From Syntrophobacterales bacterium (GTDB taxonomy: Bacteria > Desulfobacterota > Syntrophia > Syntrophales > UBA2192): DNA of 46,786 nucleotides. The stretch spans positions 1 through 46,786 of the forward strand of contig JAGPKU010000013.1 in assembly GCA_018053845.1 (NCBI GenBank), given 5' to 3'. Below are positions 29,576 through 46,495 of this stretch, one piece after another (positions within the stretch are counted from its first letter, which is position 1; each line of letters begins with the position of its first letter). The notes below the pieces were generated by a model. That model was not told where the DNA came from. It did not search any database and was given only the letters and a program-made list of their open reading frames with translations. The position numbers were made by a program, and so were the translations under genes.

Positions 29576-29649
29576 TGGGGGATCGTCTAGTGGTAGGACT
29601 CAAGACTCTGGATCTTGCTACCAAGGTTCGAATCCTTGTCCCCCAGCCA
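29576..29649 (+). tRNA. tRNA-Gln(CTG)
   Basis: The acceptor stem TGGGGGA (29576-29582) pairs with TCCCCCA (29639-29645). The anticodon loop reads CTCTGGA, giving anticodon CTG for codon CAG, and the T arm holds GGTTCGAATCC. The discriminator is G and CCA is encoded (29647-29649). 74 nt. Confidence 0.97.
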
Positions 29650-29650
29650 A

Positions 29651-29725
29651 GGTCCCATCGTCTAGCGGTCAGGACGCTGGCCTCTCACGCCGGAAACCAG
29701 GGTTCGATTCCCTGTGGGACCACCA
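29651..29725 (+). tRNA. tRNA-Glu(CTC)
   Basis: The acceptor stem GGTCCCA (29651-29657) pairs with TGGGACC (29715-29721). The anticodon loop CTCTCAC gives anticodon CTC for codon GAG. The T arm holds GGTTCGATTCC and CCA is encoded. It follows tRNA-Gln by a single nucleotide, so both come from one precursor. Both tRNAs read G-ending codons, which suits the GC-rich genes. Confidence 0.97.
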
Positions 29726-36948: not shown

Positions 36949-38484
36949 CTACAGGGGGATGTTGCCGTGCTTCTTCCAGGGCCGGTCCTCCCTCTTGTTG
37001 GCGAGCATCTGCAGGGACCGGATGATCATGGGCCGCGTCTCCCGCGGCTCGATGACGTGCTCGATGAGGGCATGGCGCGCCGCCTGGTAGGGCGTGGCGA
37101 AGTTCTCGATGTACTCCTGGGTCTTCTGCTTCAGGCTCTCGGGGTCCTCCTTGCGGAAGATGATCTTTGCGGCCCCCTCGGCGCCCATGACGGCGATCTC
37201 CGCCGAGGGCCAGGCCATGACGATGTCCGCCCCCGTCTGCCCGGAGCACATGCCGAGGTAGGAGCCGCCGTAGGCCTTGCGGATGACGATGGTGATCTTC
37301 GGCACCGTCGCCTCGGGGTAGACGTAGAGCATCTTGGCGCCGTGGCGGATGATGCCGCCGTACTCCTGCGCCGTCCCCGGGAGGTAGCCCGGGACATCGA
37401 CGAAGGTGAGGATCGGCAGGTTGAAGCAGTCGCAGAACCGGATGAACCGCGAGGCCTTGTCGGAGGAGTTGATGTCGAGGCACCCCGCGAGCACCGCCGG
37501 CTGGTTGGCGATGATCCCTACGGGCTGGCCGTTCATGCGGGCGAAGCAGGTGATCATGTTCATCGCGTAGAGGGCCTGGCTCTCGTAGATCTCGCCGTTG
37601 TCGACGACCATCTTGATGATGCGCTTCATGTCGTAGGGGCGATTGCTCGCCTCGGGGACGAGCGTGTTGAGGGCGTCCTCCATGCGGTCCGCGGGGTCGC
37701 TGCACTCCGCGACGGGGGGCTTCTCACGGTGGTTGGAGGGCAGGTAGCTCAGCAGCCGCTTGATCTGGTCGATGCAGTCCTCGTCGCTGGCGGCCACGAA
37801 ATGCGCCACCCCGCTCTTGGTGTTGTGCGTCATGGCGCCGCCGAGCTGCATGGCCGTGACGTCCTCCCCCATGACGGCCTTGACGACCTGGGGGCCCGTG
37901 ATGAACATCTGGGCGTATTCCTTGTCGACCATGTAGATGAAGTCCATCAGCGCCGGCGAGTAGACGGCCCCTCCGGCCGAGGGGCCCATGATGGCGCTGA
38001 TCTGCGGGATGATCCCCGAGGCCATGGTGTTCTTGTAAAAGATCCGCCCGTAGCCCGCCAGCGAGTCCACGGCCTCCTGGATCCTCGCGCCGCCCGAGTC
38101 GTTGAGGCCCACGATGGGGGCCCCGGCGGCCACGGCGCGGTCCATGCACTTGACGATCTTCGTCGCGTGCATCTCGCCCAGGGAGCCGCCCATGGTGCTG
38201 AAGTCCTGCGCGAAGGCGAAGACGGTCCGGCCGTCGACCCTGCCGTAGCCCGTCACGACGCCCTCGCCGGGGACCTCCGTCTTGTCCATGCCGAAGTTCG
38301 TGCAGCGGTGCTCGACGAACTTGTCCAGTTCCACGAAGCTCCCCTCGTCGAAGAGGCGCCCGAGCCGCTCGCGGGCCGTGAGCCTCCCCGTGGCCTTCAC
38401 CTTCTCGAGGGCCTTGGTCCCGCCGCCCATCTCGATCTTCCGCTCGGCGGCCCTCATGCGTTCGATTTTTTCCTGATTCGTCAC
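36949..38484 (-). CDS. Biotin-dependent acyl-CoA carboxyltransferase (methylmalonyl-CoA decarboxylase alpha / propionyl-CoA carboxylase beta)
   Basis: 511 residues in two crotonase-like halves. Family features include TGRLTARERLGRLFDEGSF, the CoA/biotin-binding GGSLGEMHATKI, NDSGGARIQEAVDSLAGYG, and FVDVPGYLPGTAQEYGGIIRHGAKMLYVY. It moves CO2 between (S)-methylmalonyl-CoA and biotin on a carrier protein, so it acts as methylmalonyl-CoA decarboxylase alpha subunit (sodium pump) or as part of a transcarboxylase or carboxylase. The start is GTG at 38484 with GAGGTGAT upstream. It is last in the unit mutase-meaB-epimerase-carboxyltransferase. No biotin carrier is encoded beside it, but an OadG-type subunit gene begins at 46566. 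Confidence 0.92.
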   Translation of the reverse strand: MTNQEKIERMRAAERKIEMGGGTKALEKVKATGRLTARERLGRLFDEGSFVELDKFVEHRCTNFGMDKTEVPGEGVVTGYGRVDGRTVFAFAQDFSTMGGSLGEMHATKIVKCMDRAVAAGAPIVGLNDSGGARIQEAVDSLAGYGRIFYKNTMASGIIPQISAIMGPSAGGAVYSPALMDFIYMVDKEYAQMFITGPQVVKAVMGEDVTAMQLGGAMTHNTKSGVAHFVAASDEDCIDQIKRLLSYLPSNHREKPPVAECSDPADRMEDALNTLVPEASNRPYDMKRIIKMVVDNGEIYESQALYAMNMITCFARMNGQPVGIIANQPAVLAGCLDINSSDKASRFIRFCDCFNLPILTFVDVPGYLPGTAQEYGGIIRHGAKMLYVYPEATVPKITIVIRKAYGGSYLGMCSGQTGADIVMAWPSAEIAVMGAEGAAKIIFRKEDPESLKQKTQEYIENFATPYQAARHALIEHVIEPRETRPMIIRSLQMLANKREDRPWKKHGNIPL

Positions 38485-38525
38485 GGTTCATCACCTCTTT
38501 CTTTTTTTGGGGTTCTGTTCGGGTC

Positions 38526-38927
38526 TCAGTCTCGTTCGCTCAGCTCCAGCAGCACGCCGCCGGTGGAGCGGGGGTGCACGAAGGCGATTTTCGCGCCGCC
38601 CGCGCCGTAGCGGGGCTTCTCGTCGATGAGCCGCACGCCCTTGGCCTTCATCTCCGCCAGGGCCGCCTCGAGGTTGTCCACGCGCAGCGCCAGGTGCTGG
38701 ATCCCCTCGCCGTTCTTCTCGATGTACTTGGCCACGGGACCGTCCGGCGCGGTCGACTCGAGCAGCTCGATCTCCGTCTCGCCGATCGGGAGGAACGCCA
38801 CGCGCACCTTCTGCTCGGCCACCTCCTCGACGCCCACGGATTTGAGCCCCATCGCCTCGTAGACCTTCAGGGACTCGGCGATGCTCTTCACTGCGATACC
38901 GATGTGATCCAAACGTGTGATCTTCAT
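38526..38927 (-). CDS. mce: Methylmalonyl-CoA epimerase
   Basis: 133 residues, vicinal-oxygen-chelate fold. Metal ligands fall in the expected places: His8 in LDHIGIAV, a second His in [11 protein letters not shown] near 78 and the Glu in LLELSE at the end. It interconverts (R)- and (S)-methylmalonyl-CoA. ATG 38927 has only a weak ribosome-binding site; the gap to meaB is 31 nt, suggesting one transcript. Confidence 0.96.
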
Positions 38928-38958
38928 GCTGACTAGACCTCCTGATTCGTCTGTGCCT

Positions 38959-39957
38959 TCAGGTAACGGTGATGCTGTAATTCTGGAGAAAGGACAGGAT
39001 CCGGGCCGCCCCCGAGGTGGCCGTGATCTTCCCGCCGACCACTTCCTTCTCGATGAGGGGCAGGAGGTTGACGACCTGGGCGTTCCTGGCGAACCAAGCC
39101 TCCAGCCCTTCCTTGACCAGGGCCCACATCCACAGGCGTGACTGCTCGCTGCGCTTCCTCTCCAGCTCCCCCTTGTCGTTCATGATCCTGCGGTGCTTGA
39201 GCACGACGTCCCAGATCTCCTCGAGCCCCGCCCCCGTGAGGGAGCTGCACAGCAGCACGGGCGTGCTCCAGTCCGGCGAGGGGGGCGAGAGCAGGTGCAT
39301 CGCCGTCTCGTACTGCGCCCGGGCGAGCTTGGCCCGCTCCACGTTGTCGCCGTCGGCCTTGTTGACCGCGATCGCATCGGCCAGCTCCAGGACGCCCTTC
39401 TTGATCCCCTGGAGCTCGTCCCCGGCCCCGGCGATCATGAGCACGAGGAAAAAGTCCACCATGGAGGCCACGGCGACCTCCGATTGCCCCACGCCGACCG
39501 TCTCCACCAGGATGACGTCGTAGCCGGCGGCCTCGCAGATCATCATGGTCTCCCGGGTCTTGCGGGCCACCCCGCCGAGGGTGCCCCCCGAGGGGGAGGG
39601 GCGGATGAAGGCCCGCTCGCTGGTGGAGAGCTTCTCCATCCGAGTCTTGTCGGCCAGGATGCTGCCGCCCGTCCGGGGGCTGCTCGGGTCGACGGCCAGC
39701 ACGGCCACGCGGTGGCCCTTCTCGGTGAGCATCGTGCCGAAGCTCTCGATGAAGGTGCTCTTGCCCGCGCCCGGCACGCCCGTGATCCCCAGGCGGACGG
39801 CCTTGCCCGTGTAAGGCAGCAGCGCGTCCAAGACGGCCTGCGCCGTTTCCTGGTGCTCCGGCAGGATGCTCTCGATCAGCGTGATCGTTTTGGCCATGAC
39901 CAGCCGGCTGCCGCCCGTCACGCCCTGGACGTAGTAGTCGATTCCCTTTTCGGCCAT
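38959..39957 (-). CDS. meaB: MeaB/ArgK-type GTPase, methylmalonyl-CoA mutase chaperone
   Basis: 332 residues. G1 is GVPGAGKS at 60-67, followed by [18 protein letters not shown] and the [10 protein letters not shown] switch region; NKAD gives G4. MeaB protects methylmalonyl-CoA mutase and controls cobalamin loading. It follows the mutase gene by 73 nt, the usual pairing. Confidence 0.96.
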
Positions 39958-40030: not shown

Positions 40031-42175
40031 CTAGGCCGCCCGTTTCAGGTACTTGTTCTCCAGCAGGGACAGGACCTTGTCCGCCGATTCGGGGATCGAG
40101 GTCCCCGGCCCGAAGATCCCCACGACCCCCGCCTTGTAGAGGAAGTCGTAGTCCGTCGGGGGGATGACGCCGCCGGCGATGACCAGGATCTCGCCCGCGC
40201 CCATCTCCTGGAGCTTCCGGATCAGCTCGGGCACCAGCGTCTTGTGGCCCGCCGTGAGGCTCGAGGCGCCCACGACGTGGACGTCGTTCTCGAGGGCCAT
40301 CCGGGCCGCCTCCTCGGGGGTCTGGAACATGGGGCTGATGTCGATGTCGAAGCCCAGGTCGGCGAAGGCCGTGGCGACGACCTTGATGCCGCGGTCGTGG
40401 CCGTCCTGGCCCATCTTCGTGACGAGCATCCTCGGGCGCCGGCCCGTCTGCTTCAGGAAGTTCTCCGTGCGCTTCTGCAGGCCCCGGATCACGTCGCTTT
40501 CGCCGTACTCGGAAGAGTAGACGCCGGAGATCATCCGGGTGGTGGCCACGTAGCGGCCGAAGACCTTCTCCATGGCGTCGCTGACCTCGCCCACGGTGGC
40601 GCGAAGCCGGATGGCCTGGATGGAGGCCTCCAGGAGGTTGCCGCCCTTTTCGGCCGCGGCCGTGATGTTCTCCAGGGCCTTCTTCACGGCGGCCCCGTCG
40701 CGCCTGGCCTTGAGTTCCTTGATCCGGGCGATCTGCTCGTCGCGCACCGTGCTGGGCACCTCGAGCACCTCGACGGGGGGCTCTTCCTTCACGCGGTACT
40801 TGTTGACGCCGACGATGACGTCCTTGCCCTGGTCGATGCGGGCCTGGCGCCTGGCCGCCGACTCCTCGATGCGGAGCTTCGGCATGCCCGTCTCGATGGC
40901 GCGGGCCATGCCGCCCAAGGCCTCGATCTCGTCCATGATCTTCTTGGCCTCGCGGATGATGGAGCCCGTGAGGGCCTCGATGTAGTAGGAGCCGCCCAGG
41001 GGGTCCACCACGTGGCAGATCTGGGACTCCTCCTGAATGATGATCTGGGTGTTGCGGGCGATGCGGGCCGAGAAGTCCGTCGGCAGGCTGATCGCCTCGT
41101 CGAAGGAGTTCGTGTGGAGCGACTGGGTGCCGCCCAGGGCCGCCGCGAGGGCCTCGAGGGTCGTGCGGATGATGTTGTTGTAGGGGTCCTGCTCCGTGAG
41201 GCTCCAGCCCGAGGTCTGCACGTGGGTGCGCAGCACCGTGGAGCGGGGGTTCTTCGGGTTGAACTCGCTGACCGTCTGGTGCCACAGGTAGCGGGCCGCG
41301 CGCAGCATGGCGATCTCCATGAAGAAGTTCATCCCGACGCCGAAGAAGAACGAGAGCCGGGGAGCGAAGTCGTCGATGGAGAGGCCGCCGTCGATGGCCG
41401 CCCGGATGTACTGCTTGCCGTCCGAGAGCGTGAAGGCCGTCTGCAGGACCGAGTTGGCGCCCGCCTCCATGATGTGGTAGCCGCTGATGGAGATCGTGTT
41501 GTAGCGCGGCATGTGCTTCGAGCAGTAGGCGATGATGTCCGAGACGATCCGCATCGAGGGCTGGGGCGGGTAGATGTAGGTGTTGCGGGTGAGGAATTCC
41601 TTGAGGATGTCGTTCTGGATCGTGCCTGCGAGCTGCTCCTGCTTGACGCCCTGCTCCTCGGCGGCGACGATGTAGCCCGCCAGGATCGGCAGCACGGCGC
41701 CGTTCATCGTCATGGAGACGGTCACCTTGTCCAGGGGGATCCCGTCGAAGAGGACCTTCATGTCCTCCACGGAGTCGATGGCGACGCCGGCCTTGCCGAC
41801 GTCGCCGGCCACGCGCGGGTGGTCGGAGTCGTAGCCGCGGTGCGTGGCCAGGTCGAAGGCCACCGAGAGGCCCGTCTGGCCCGCGGCGAGGTTTCTTCGG
41901 TAGAAGGCGTTGGATTCCTTCGCCGTGGCGAACCCGGCGTACTGCCGGATCGTCCAGGGCTGGTTGGCGTACATGGTGGCCACGGGGCCGCGGACGTAGG
42001 GGGCCATGCCGGAGAGGGTGTTGACGAAGTCGAGACCCTCGAGATCCTCCGCCGTGTAGATGGGCTTCACGGTGATCCCCTCGGGCGTCTCCCAGTTGAG
42101 CGCCTCGACGGGCTTCCCCTTGAGTTCCTTCGCAGCCTGTTCCATCCATTTCTTCATCTGGGGGTGTTGAGCCAT
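40031..42175 (-). CDS. Methylmalonyl-CoA mutase, single-chain form
   Basis: 714 residues. The N-terminal TIM barrel shows [30 protein letters not shown] and [12 protein letters not shown]; the C-terminal cobalamin domain has DGHDRG (Asp591, His593, Gly596), SLTAGHKTL and [12 protein letters not shown]. It isomerises (R)-methylmalonyl-CoA to succinyl-CoA using adenosylcobalamin. ATG 42175 follows AAGGAGGAAGACA; the frame runs open much further upstream, through the transposase gene, but that part is out-of-frame noise. Catalytic and B12 parts are on one chain, unlike the split archaeal form. The closest upstream region holds an 11-bp piece (GAATCGGACAA) of the element described at 43109-43204. 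Confidence 0.97.
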
Positions 42176-42306: not shown

Positions 42307-43056
42307 TCAGGGCAGCATCCGTGGGTCCTCCGCCGCGACCCGCTGGCCCAGGAGGCCTCGGGCGAGCCTGACGAGATTCTCCCCCCGATGGTTGTACCGC
42401 CACTCGATTTCCTTGAGGTAGAGCGGGAAGTACGCTCGGGGCACCCCGCGGTAGTGCCTGAGCCACTGCCGGGTGAAGGACCAGAACCCGTCGATCTCCG
42501 GCGGGATCTCGCGGTCCCTCCGGGTCCCCGGCGCGCCGTTGACCACGACGCTGCCGCCGCGGACATCCAGGGACGTGCAGGCCAGGGTCCCGCCGCAGTA
42601 TCGCAGCTCCCCGGCCTCCGCGGCGCCTTCGCCCTCGGCGACGGGGATCGCGAAGAGACGGCCGTTGCCCTGGTAGATGCCCAGGGCCATCCGCTCCCCC
42701 GACCGGGAGAAGTCCGGGCGGAACCGCACGCCGTCCCCGGCGATCGCCGCCCCCCCGTCCGTCCTGGCCAGCAGGGCCTTCAGGGCCTTCATCTCGTGCG
42801 TGTAGATGGCGGTCCGCAGGATCCGAAACCATCGCTGGACCGTCTTGAGGTCCAGCGGCACCTGGTGCCGAAGTCGGTAGGCCGGTACCCCCAGGCAGAA
42901 ATATTCGAGCAGCCGGCCCTTCCAGTAGGGGGAGATCTTTGCGGAACCCCAGAACGTCCTGTCGAACTTGCGCGTCAGGCCGCAGCGGCCGCAGCGCCGC
43001 TGCCCCGTGGAAAGGCGCCAGAAGCTCGTTCCGCCGCATCGAGGACAAATCAACAT
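42307..43056 (-). CDS. Degenerate IS1595-family transposase
   Basis: 249 residues. The N-terminal zinc ribbon (Cys4, Cys7, Cys22, Cys25) and the C-terminal [18 protein letters not shown]...[12 protein letters not shown] are typical of ISXO2/IS1595 transposases. The middle is short and the catalytic pattern is poor: the usual EVDET motif corresponds to IAGDGV (Asp108), the SD motif perhaps to SLD (Asp164) and the final Glu/Asn to Asp189. Activity is therefore doubtful, yet the frame has no stop. No obvious terminal inverted repeats or target duplications are seen. Start ATG 43056 is chosen because the ribbon follows; ATG 43092 is possible. It lies between the 96-bp element and the mutase gene. 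Confidence 0.75.
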
Positions 43057-43108
43057 GACCGACTCTGTCTGCAGGACAGGTGCAACCGACATGGGGTAAG
43101 GTTTGTGC

Positions 43109-43204
43109 GCGCTTCTAGCACCGGGACCGGGCGAAAACTATCGGGTACCGTCTGATTCTGCTGTAGGACTCGTTCAGGGGCGCCTGTCGGGTTTTGTCTG
43201 ACAA
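43109..43204 (-). promoter_or_regulatory. 96-bp element, copy A (inverted relative to copy B at 46400-46495)
   Basis: Read on minus, it aligns with copy B over 96 positions without a gap, 62 identical. Conserved parts are TGTCnGACA plus a second GACA half-site (positions 2-20), GTCCTACA, AGAAT, CnGAC, CCCGATAG and TAGAAGCGC. CCTACA and CGATAG stand 18 bp apart in both copies and could be a weak promoter, with the palindrome at an activator position. It lies about 50 nt upstream of the transposase gene and may originally have served the mutase operon. Confidence 0.7.
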
Positions 43205-43358: not shown

Positions 43359-44705
43359 ATGCCGACCGTCGAAGAATTGCTCGCCCGGGCCGCGCAGCCG
43401 TCGAAGGACGCCCTGCGGATGCACCCGTTCTACCGGGGAAAGCTCCAAGTGGCCCCGAAGTGCGCCATCCGGGACTTCTCGGATTTCTCCATCTGGTACA
43501 GCCCGGGGGTCGCCGCCCCGTGCAAGGACATCCAGGCGAACCCCGAGAGGGTCTTCGAGCACACCAACAAGGGCAACCTGATCGCCGTCGTCACCAACGG
43601 GACGCGCGTGCTGGGACTGGGCGACATCGGCCCCGAGGCGAGCCTGCCCGTCATGGAGGGCAAGGCGATCCTCTTCAAGTACCTGGGCGGCGTCGACGCC
43701 GTGCCCATCGCCCTGCGCACGAAGGACCCCGCGCAGTTCATCGAGACCGTCAAGCTCCTCGAGCCCGCCTTCGGCGGCATCAACCTCGAGGACATCTCCC
43801 AGCCGGAGTGCTTTCGGATCCTCGACACCCTGCGGGCCGAGATGAACATTCCGGTATGGCACGACGACCAGCAGGGGACGGCCTGCGTGATCCTCGCCGG
43901 GCTTCTCAACGCCCTGAAGATCGTCGGCAAGCGCCTGCAGGACGCCCGGATCGTGCTCTTCGGCATCGGGGCGGCCAACGTGGCCACCTACCGCCTGCTC
44001 CGGGCGAGCGGGGCCGACCCGGCGCGGATCGTCGCCGTCGACTCCAAGGGGACGCTGCACCGCGGCCGCGGCGACATCGAGGCCGCGCAGAGGGACTTCG
44101 CCGTCAAGTGGCGGATCTGCCTCGAGACCAACGGGGCGGGCCTGGTCGGGACCGTGGCCGACGCGCTGAAGGGGGCCGACGTCTTCATCGGCGCCTCCAC
44201 CCCGGGGCCGGGCGTCATCAAGCCCGAGTGGGTCCGGGGGATGGCGAAGGACGCCGTCGTCTTTCCCTGCGCGAACCCCGTCCCCGAGATCTGGCCCTGG
44301 GAGGCCAAGGCGGCGGGCGCTCGGATCGTCGGGACGGGACGGAGCGACTTCCCCAACCAGATCAACAACTCGCTGGGCTTCCCCGGCATCTTCCGGGGCG
44401 TGCTCGACGTGCGGGCCCGGAACATCACCGACGAGATGGCCGTCGCCGCCGCGGAGGAGATCGCCCGGGTGGCCGAGGAGAAGGGCCTTTCCGACGACCG
44501 CATCGTCCCCGCCATGGACGACGAGGATCTCTACCCCCGCTGCGCCGTCGCCACGGCCCTGAAGGCCCAGGAGCAGGGGATCGCGCGGGTCGAAAAAACC
44601 GGGGAGGAGCTCTACCGGGAGGCCGTGGCGGCGGTCCGCGGCGCGCGCGAGATGACCCGCGTCCTCGTGGAGCAGGGGGTCATCGCCCCCGCCCCGGCGG
44701 AGTGA
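43359..44705 (+). CDS. Malic enzyme (short form, without phosphotransacetylase domain)
   Basis: 448 residues. Catalytic Tyr47 lies in WYSPGVAAPCKDI; the Lys is in VMEGKAILFKYLGG; metal and substrate residues are in HDDQQGTA and the Rossmann motif is FGIGAANVA. It decarboxylates malate to pyruvate with NAD(P)+. The length matches the short single-domain type, not E. coli MaeB with its extra domain. I prefer ATG 43359, preceded by GGGGGG, over the upstream codon at 43323, which overlaps the candidate -10 box. It links the fumarase product to pyruvate. The CoA-transferase follows after 120 nt. Confidence 0.93.
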   Translation: MPTVEELLARAAQPSKDALRMHPFYRGKLQVAPKCAIRDFSDFSIWYSPGVAAPCKDIQANPERVFEHTNKGNLIAVVTNGTRVLGLGDIGPEASLPVMEGKAILFKYLGGVDAVPIALRTKDPAQFIETVKLLEPAFGGINLEDISQPECFRILDTLRAEMNIPVWHDDQQGTACVILAGLLNALKIVGKRLQDARIVLFGIGAANVATYRLLRASGADPARIVAVDSKGTLHRGRGDIEAAQRDFAVKWRICLETNGAGLVGTVADALKGADVFIGASTPGPGVIKPEWVRGMAKDAVVFPCANPVPEIWPWEAKAAGARIVGTGRSDFPNQINNSLGFPGIFRGVLDVRARNITDEMAVAAAEEIARVAEEKGLSDDRIVPAMDDEDLYPRCAVATALKAQEQGIARVEKTGEELYREAVAAVRGAREMTRVLVEQGVIAPAPAE

Positions 44706-46399: not shown

Positions 46400-46495
46400 G
46401 TGTCGGACAAAGACTGACACAATCTCAATGAGCGGTCCTACAAGAGAATCGGACAATGCCCGATAGCGCAGGGCGGCCCGCGGTGATAGAAGCGC
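46400..46495 (+). promoter_or_regulatory. 96-bp element, copy B (upstream of the OadG-type gene)
   Basis: Same element as at 43109-43204 but on plus, 62 of 96 identical, no gaps. Here the palindrome is GTGTC-GGACAAAGACT-GACAC, an extended inverted repeat. The end of the element lies 70 nt before the OadG-type start codon, so a promoter within it would give a leader of about 90 nt. Confidence 0.7.

Follow-up and report, generated by a model that had tools for sequence, protein, structure and literature searches.

Domesticated transposases are, as such, an already known kind of protein, and in eukaryotes the recruitment of DDE transposases as transcription regulators is a classic theme. TldR is derived from TnpB and has lost its nuclease. 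It is a transposon-derived protein turned transcription regulator (available text of PMC13418256), a history that the protein considered here would share; however, TldR is RNA-guided and TnpB-derived, whereas the present protein is of the DDE type and would recognise DNA itself. InsA of IS1 is described as a zinc finger plus HTH without DDE, which represses a promoter partly overlapping the IS1 left end (available text of PMC12428005). The IS1595 and IS1 families are related, according to a title in the reference list of the same paper. For the IS1595 family, 8-bp duplications and a zinc finger plus DDE have been described, and a terminal GG is given for the related Merlin elements (available text of PMC8101967). 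No worked case of a bacterial IS-type DDE transposase kept as a regulator was found in searches of an open-access library, which is weak evidence of absence, as most subscription papers lie outside it. The term 'DDE' occurs zero times in the available text of a review of prokaryotic mobile-element recruitment (PMC8987985).

The window is the whole stretch of DNA that was analysed, 46,786 nucleotides of contig JAGPKU010000013.1 from a Syntrophobacterales bacterium (assembly GCA_018053845.1; order Syntrophales). The gene at 42307-43056 is real and derived from an IS1595-family transposase. The initial annotation had described it as an open frame, and its coordinates and its freedom from stops and frameshifts are as described there. 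The gene and the operon that follows it are laid out as below.

42307 to 43056, minus strand: IS1595-family transposase gene, apparently domesticated; 249 codons, with ATG at 43056 and the TGA end at 42307 (ORF, Pfam/NCBIfam, orthologs, regional dN/dS)
Residues 1-35 of the 249-aa protein: zinc ribbon
Residues 36-95: HTH region
Residues 96-183: catalytic core, degenerate
Residues 184-240: C-terminus, conserved
40031 to 42175, minus strand: methylmalonyl-CoA mutase gene, first gene past the transposase-derived gene after a 131-bp gap (Pfam, conserved order)
36949 to 39957, minus strand: rest of the propionyl/methylmalonyl-CoA cluster, with MeaB-type GTPase, glyoxalase-fold (epimerase-like) protein and carboxyltransferase (Pfam, synteny)

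Elsewhere in the window, two adjacent tRNA genes (29576-29722, plus strand) are the only Rfam matches above the gathering score.

The zinc ribbon of the IS1595 family is matched above the Pfam cut-off (Zn_ribbon_IS1595, PF12760, E 6.9e-6), with cysteines C4, C7, C22 and C25 invariant in all seven proteins of the genus. An intact C-terminal IS1595 signature had been claimed alongside it, and here the matches fall below cut-off: DDE_Tnp_IS1595 covers profile positions 118-153 of 153, the last 36 (E 4.4e-4), and the NCBIfam model transpos_IS1595 matches the C-terminus only (E 1.8e-8). The restriction of the DDE match to the C-terminal part is common to the window protein and its six congeners. 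An altered DDE core is borne out by comparison with an intact relative, whose motifs are EMDET, YYTDDW and GIEGFW and against which all three DDE positions are changed in the window copy, to G, G and D. The first catalytic motif is preserved in none of the seven genus members; six lack its Asp in the aligned column, and G003 has an Asp in that column in an unrelated context. The second Asp is kept in five (Gly in the window, His in G001) and the catalytic Glu in six (Asp in the window). Catalysis is presumed lost because the motif context is gone. Structure models of the window protein and the intact relative were of low confidence (mean pLDDT 43.5 and 46.8), so the catalytic pocket was judged from the alignment alone, and a profile search of solved structures returned weak zinc-ribbon and unrelated hits (best E 0.03).

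All genomes of the genus (7/7) carry the gene, and in each it immediately precedes the methylmalonyl-CoA mutase gene on the same strand, which answers the question that the initial annotation had asked of relatives; the G002 copy was read from two contigs, each with part of the gene's 3' end, the operon being on the other contig. The mutase gene is followed by MeaB-type, epimerase-like and carboxyltransferase genes wherever the genus contigs extend far enough. Such an orthologous fixed position in several species is expected of exaptation, whereas a mobile IS1595 element would be expected in several places or copies: in the source genome the gene is single, a second copy, which if intact would have marked it as an ordinary mobile element, being found neither by DNA nor by protein at E <= 1. 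On the other side of the gene, the divergent neighbour (43359-44705, plus strand) is a malic enzyme in the window and G001 only, and the other five genus genomes have a CaiB-like CoA-transferase frame in its place (CaiB judged by eye).

Matches to the window protein at E <= 1e-5 were obtained in 18 of the 149 genomes searched, the strong ones being in the seven genus genomes, where the six congeners are 65-73% identical to the window protein, and in G034, of a different family, whose relative shows 52-54% protein identity over nearly the whole length. A profile search of 155 genomes of the order gave nine matches at E <= 1e-15, namely the seven of the genus, the insertion sequence (IS) of G034 and a distant match in G035; the rest of the 18 are matches of limited length, to the C-terminus or zinc ribbon of distant elements, and were set aside. 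Public genome contigs yielded 23 loci on scanning, of which L047 to L051 appear to be genus records already in the count and were not counted twice. In a Candidatus Torokbacteria contig (L053:86-838), a 50-51% identical protein likewise has its first motif altered (GIDKT), and a clear right end is lacking; this may be another decayed or domesticated case. Of 46 genomes, 37 have mutase homologs at E <= 1e-100. Upstream of eight of these homologs from beyond the genus (L093 to L100, 65-84% identity), inspection by eye of the listed frames of at least 110 codons showed no transposase-derived gene.

Selection on the gene differs along its length. Pooled dN/dS (bootstrap 95% interval) is 0.13 (0.04-0.27) in the zinc ribbon, 0.14 (0.07-0.25) in the HTH region and 0.20 (0.10-0.38) in the C-terminus, compared with 0.56 (0.42-0.72) in the catalytic core, where the interval lies below 1 and above the values for the other regions. 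The low dN/dS proposed earlier as a check of retention is found in three regions and not to the same degree in the core. For the whole gene the median is 0.29, against 0.12 for the mutase, 0.17 for the MeaB-type and 0.06 for the epimerase-like gene, and the seven coding sequences of the genus contain no internal stops. Purifying selection without mobility, as expected of exaptation, is thus seen outside the core (0.13-0.20). Pairwise dS of the gene correlates with that of the mutase gene (r 0.83) and is 1.2 to 2.2 times as high, and an AU test does not reject the topology of the host genes for it (p 0.162), its own tree being poorly supported. GC3 is 0.80-0.90 in the genus copies, close to that of the host operon (0.97 in the mutase gene), and 0.54 in the G034 element; the contrast with the latter indicates that the gene is old in the genus lineage. 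Together, these comparisons may be read as one old insertion, vertically inherited and retained, and domestication of the transposase is well supported. The proposal that it was kept as a DNA-binding protein gains strength from the occurrence in the same place in 7/7 genomes, with purifying selection on both putative DNA-binding parts. A decaying insertion, the other possibility raised at the outset, does not describe the present state of the gene, although the gene did begin as an insertion that split the control region from the mutase gene.

The relative in G034 (locus L052) is an intact-looking IS, with D, D and E present and a full DDE domain match (E 2.3e-24). Its ends, read from the sequence, are GGTAATTCCCC... 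and ...ATTACC (GGTAAT ends), with inner repeat arms detected, and it is flanked by an 8-bp target duplication, TTACCTTT; ends and duplication fit the IS1595 family as described in the available text of PMC8101967. The window gene resembles this element in sequence (52-54% identity), in the order of its domains, in its zinc ribbon and C-terminal signature, and in having a collinear left element end, 63 nt ahead of the start codon. It differs from it in that the catalytic motif is lost, the right end is absent, and the gene is a single copy with host-like codon use in a genus-wide fixed place beside the mutase operon. The leader and control region upstream of the gene contain the features listed here, together with a further copy of one of them.

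43057 to 43068, minus strand: block directly before the ATG, ACAGAGTCGGTC, nearly invariant in the genus (10/12 columns invariant in five genomes)
43072 to 43100, minus strand: surviving piece (remnant) of the left terminal inverted repeat of the IS, a presumed operator (alignment with congeners, shuffles); best-conserved 17 nt at 43080-43096
43109 to 43204, minus strand: '96-bp element', putative host regulatory region upstream of the IS-derived part (alignment; profile R1 match at 43133-43204)
43113 to 43120, minus strand: putative -10 box TGCTAGAA facing the gene and the mutase operon (by eye)
46401 to 46468, plus strand: another copy of the 96-bp element; it precedes an oxaloacetate decarboxylase gamma-chain gene and has no adjoining transposase gene

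In G034 the left end starts 66 nt before the ATG of the IS gene, with the matching part at -63, and the matches in G002, G003, G004, G005 and G006 start at -63 or -62 from the ATG. Out of 1000 dinucleotide shuffles each, the left-end score was reached by 0 in G002, 1 in G003, 0 in G004, 13 in G005 and 0 in G006. For the window and G001, 481 and 902 of 1000 shuffles score as high, and neither is significant alone; the window copy is degraded, with a 19-nt deletion after the remnant. As the window remnant by itself is indistinguishable from chance, it was recognised through its congeners. Among these five congeners 23/24 remnant columns are invariant, against 28/81 four-fold columns of the gene, and the two spacers of the same leader have 1/16 and 7/17 invariant columns. 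The remnant occurs once per genome, at this gene only, in 5/7 genus genomes (<= 3 mismatches). No right-end remnant was found past the stop codon by downstream alignment judged by eye, and an inverted-repeat search around the window gene gave only chance-like pairs. The paired, GG-starting terminal repeats expected of the family are reduced here to a left-end remnant that lacks GG; the right border of the element, where one copy of an 8-bp target duplication like that of the G034 relative would stand, is lost. The earlier statement that there are no terminal repeats thus holds for the window read alone, but comparison reveals a degraded left end at about 43072-43100. Survival of the left end alone is what would be expected of a binding site, unlike plain decay. 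No Shine-Dalgarno sequence is recognisable in the 43057-43068 block. The first codons of the gene also keep their synonymous positions.

The initial annotation had suggested, as speculation, that the protein binds the palindromic element next door, and the distribution of the 96-bp element speaks against this. Its profile R1 is found in 15/60 genomes at E <= 0.1, including all seven of the genus, with several hits near E 0.03-0.1 that may be chance. At E < 0.01, copies outside the genus occur in G036 (two copies), G020 and G014, which belong to other families, carry weaker copies and lack the gene; the copies lie near LuxR-type response-regulator and CoA-ligase-type genes, or precede a gene for acetyl-CoA synthetase (neighbours assigned by Pfam for G036 and G020, by eye for G014). 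An earlier pattern search (<= 3 mismatches) had found 8/60 genomes, the seven of the genus and a likely chance hit in G052, and alone would wrongly suggest that element and gene always occur together. Because the element is present in genomes without the gene, and in a second window copy without a transposase gene, it is probably not the main target of the transposase-derived protein, and its binding by that protein is disfavoured. R1 has no match in L093 to L100, the eight mutase loci from beyond the genus, so the element does not appear to be tied to the mutase gene either. A relative of the LuxR-type response regulator is encoded in each of the seven genus genomes (best per genome 63-67% identical). 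Most likely, the 96-bp element predates the insertion and serves the host as the activator region of a response-regulator circuit; probably it is the region that the response regulator binds. The locus would have this promoter region in common with LuxR-type response-regulator circuits near acyl-CoA genes in Syntrophales, from which it differs in that the host control region there exists without a transposase-derived gene. A box similar to TGCTAGAA stands after the second element copy. A variant of the element, TCCTAC...AGATTCAGAC....CCGAT, was noted in G001, G004 and G005 at loci L079, L080, L082, L083 and L085 (about 1500), with a frame starting ATGATG within about 100 nt downstream in 3/5 of these loci.

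The retained IS end is a better candidate site than the 96-bp element for the transposase-derived protein. On the explanation preferred here, an IS of the IS1595 family inserted itself, in the ancestor of the genus, between a host promoter and the operon of methylmalonyl-CoA mutase. The transposase lost its catalytic site and the element its right end, but three parts of the protein (zinc ribbon, HTH region and C-terminus) were retained, as was the left end of the element. The comparisons show the origin, the fixed position, the single copy, the loss of the catalytic motif, the selection on the DNA-binding parts and, in five genomes, the conservation of the left end. As a further step, the protein would bind the retained left end, about 12 nt past the putative -10 box, and binding would repress transcription of its own gene and of the mutase operon. 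A regulatory role is what we infer for the protein, with repression a more likely sign of its effect than activation. Such a protein would be InsA-like, and in five genomes a candidate site is conserved at the place expected for one, near the putative promoter. Zinc-binding and HTH parts without catalysis are common to both, and terminal-repeat binding near the own promoter, with repression, is presumed here and described for InsA (available text of PMC12428005). InsA, in contrast, belongs to a mobile element and is produced in the absence of a frameshift, whereas the element here is immobile and has a host metabolic operon downstream; IS1 membership is not claimed. That an InsA-like, catalysis-dead protein binds the retained IS end and represses both its own gene and the mutase operon is, on the comparative data, marginally favoured over its negation. 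The presumed operator is weak in 2/7 genomes (the window and G001) although the gene stays.

Several other explanations bear on the same observations. The protein may be domesticated with its target elsewhere, as a trans-acting inhibitor of related IS1595 elements that binds ends without cutting, or as a protein binding DNA at other sites, in which case its place beside the mutase gene would be merely inherited. DNA-binding parts kept with catalysis lost do give it the look of an inhibitor, and there is no close mobile relative in the seven genus genomes, other hits being short or 31% identical. This explanation leaves unaccounted for, however, that in five genomes no part of the leader is conserved as well as the left IS end and that there is a single remnant site per genome, yet self-repression alone would need a site too; overall, it is rather unlikely. 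An idle protein, its frame preserved solely to keep ribosomes on the long leader from promoter to mutase gene and so avert Rho-dependent termination, would agree with the position of the gene between putative promoter and operon in 7/7 genomes, and no stops would be expected. It does not predict invariant zinc cysteines, nor dN/dS values as low as 0.13-0.20 in just the DNA-binding and C-terminal parts, and is judged improbable.

Decay of an insertion too recent to have gathered stops could draw on the relaxed core (dN/dS 0.56), on the loss of the right IS end and on the loss of much of the left end in the window copy. It is contradicted by the comparative data, since the gene is found without a stop in 7/7 genomes at 65-73% identity to the window copy, is old in the lineage by its GC3 (0.80-0.90 vs 0.54 in the G034 element) and is under strong purifying selection outside the core, which makes such decay highly improbable. 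Hardly credible at all is a transposase that, through an unusual catalytic site, is still active or moves itself: the second Asp is kept in 5/7 and the Glu in 6/7 genus members, but there is one copy in one orthologous place, the first catalytic motif context is gone in all seven, the right end is gone, and the Pfam DDE domain is matched only C-terminally in the window protein and its six congeners.

With repression from the retained IS end as the preferred reading, the chances are about even that a whole DDE IS unit, a dead transposase plus one terminal repeat, became a repressor-operator pair for a central metabolic operon, that of methylmalonyl-CoA mutase in Syntrophales. The 96-bp element, for its part, stands at the head of two transcription units in the window and is one of a wider Syntrophales set, and it may mark a response-regulator regulon for acyl-CoA metabolism. 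As the likely ancestor type, the surviving putative site and the candidate operon are each identifiable, the passage from mobile element to regulator is directly testable here. More generally, genes annotated 'transposase' that adjoin metabolic operons may be regulators.
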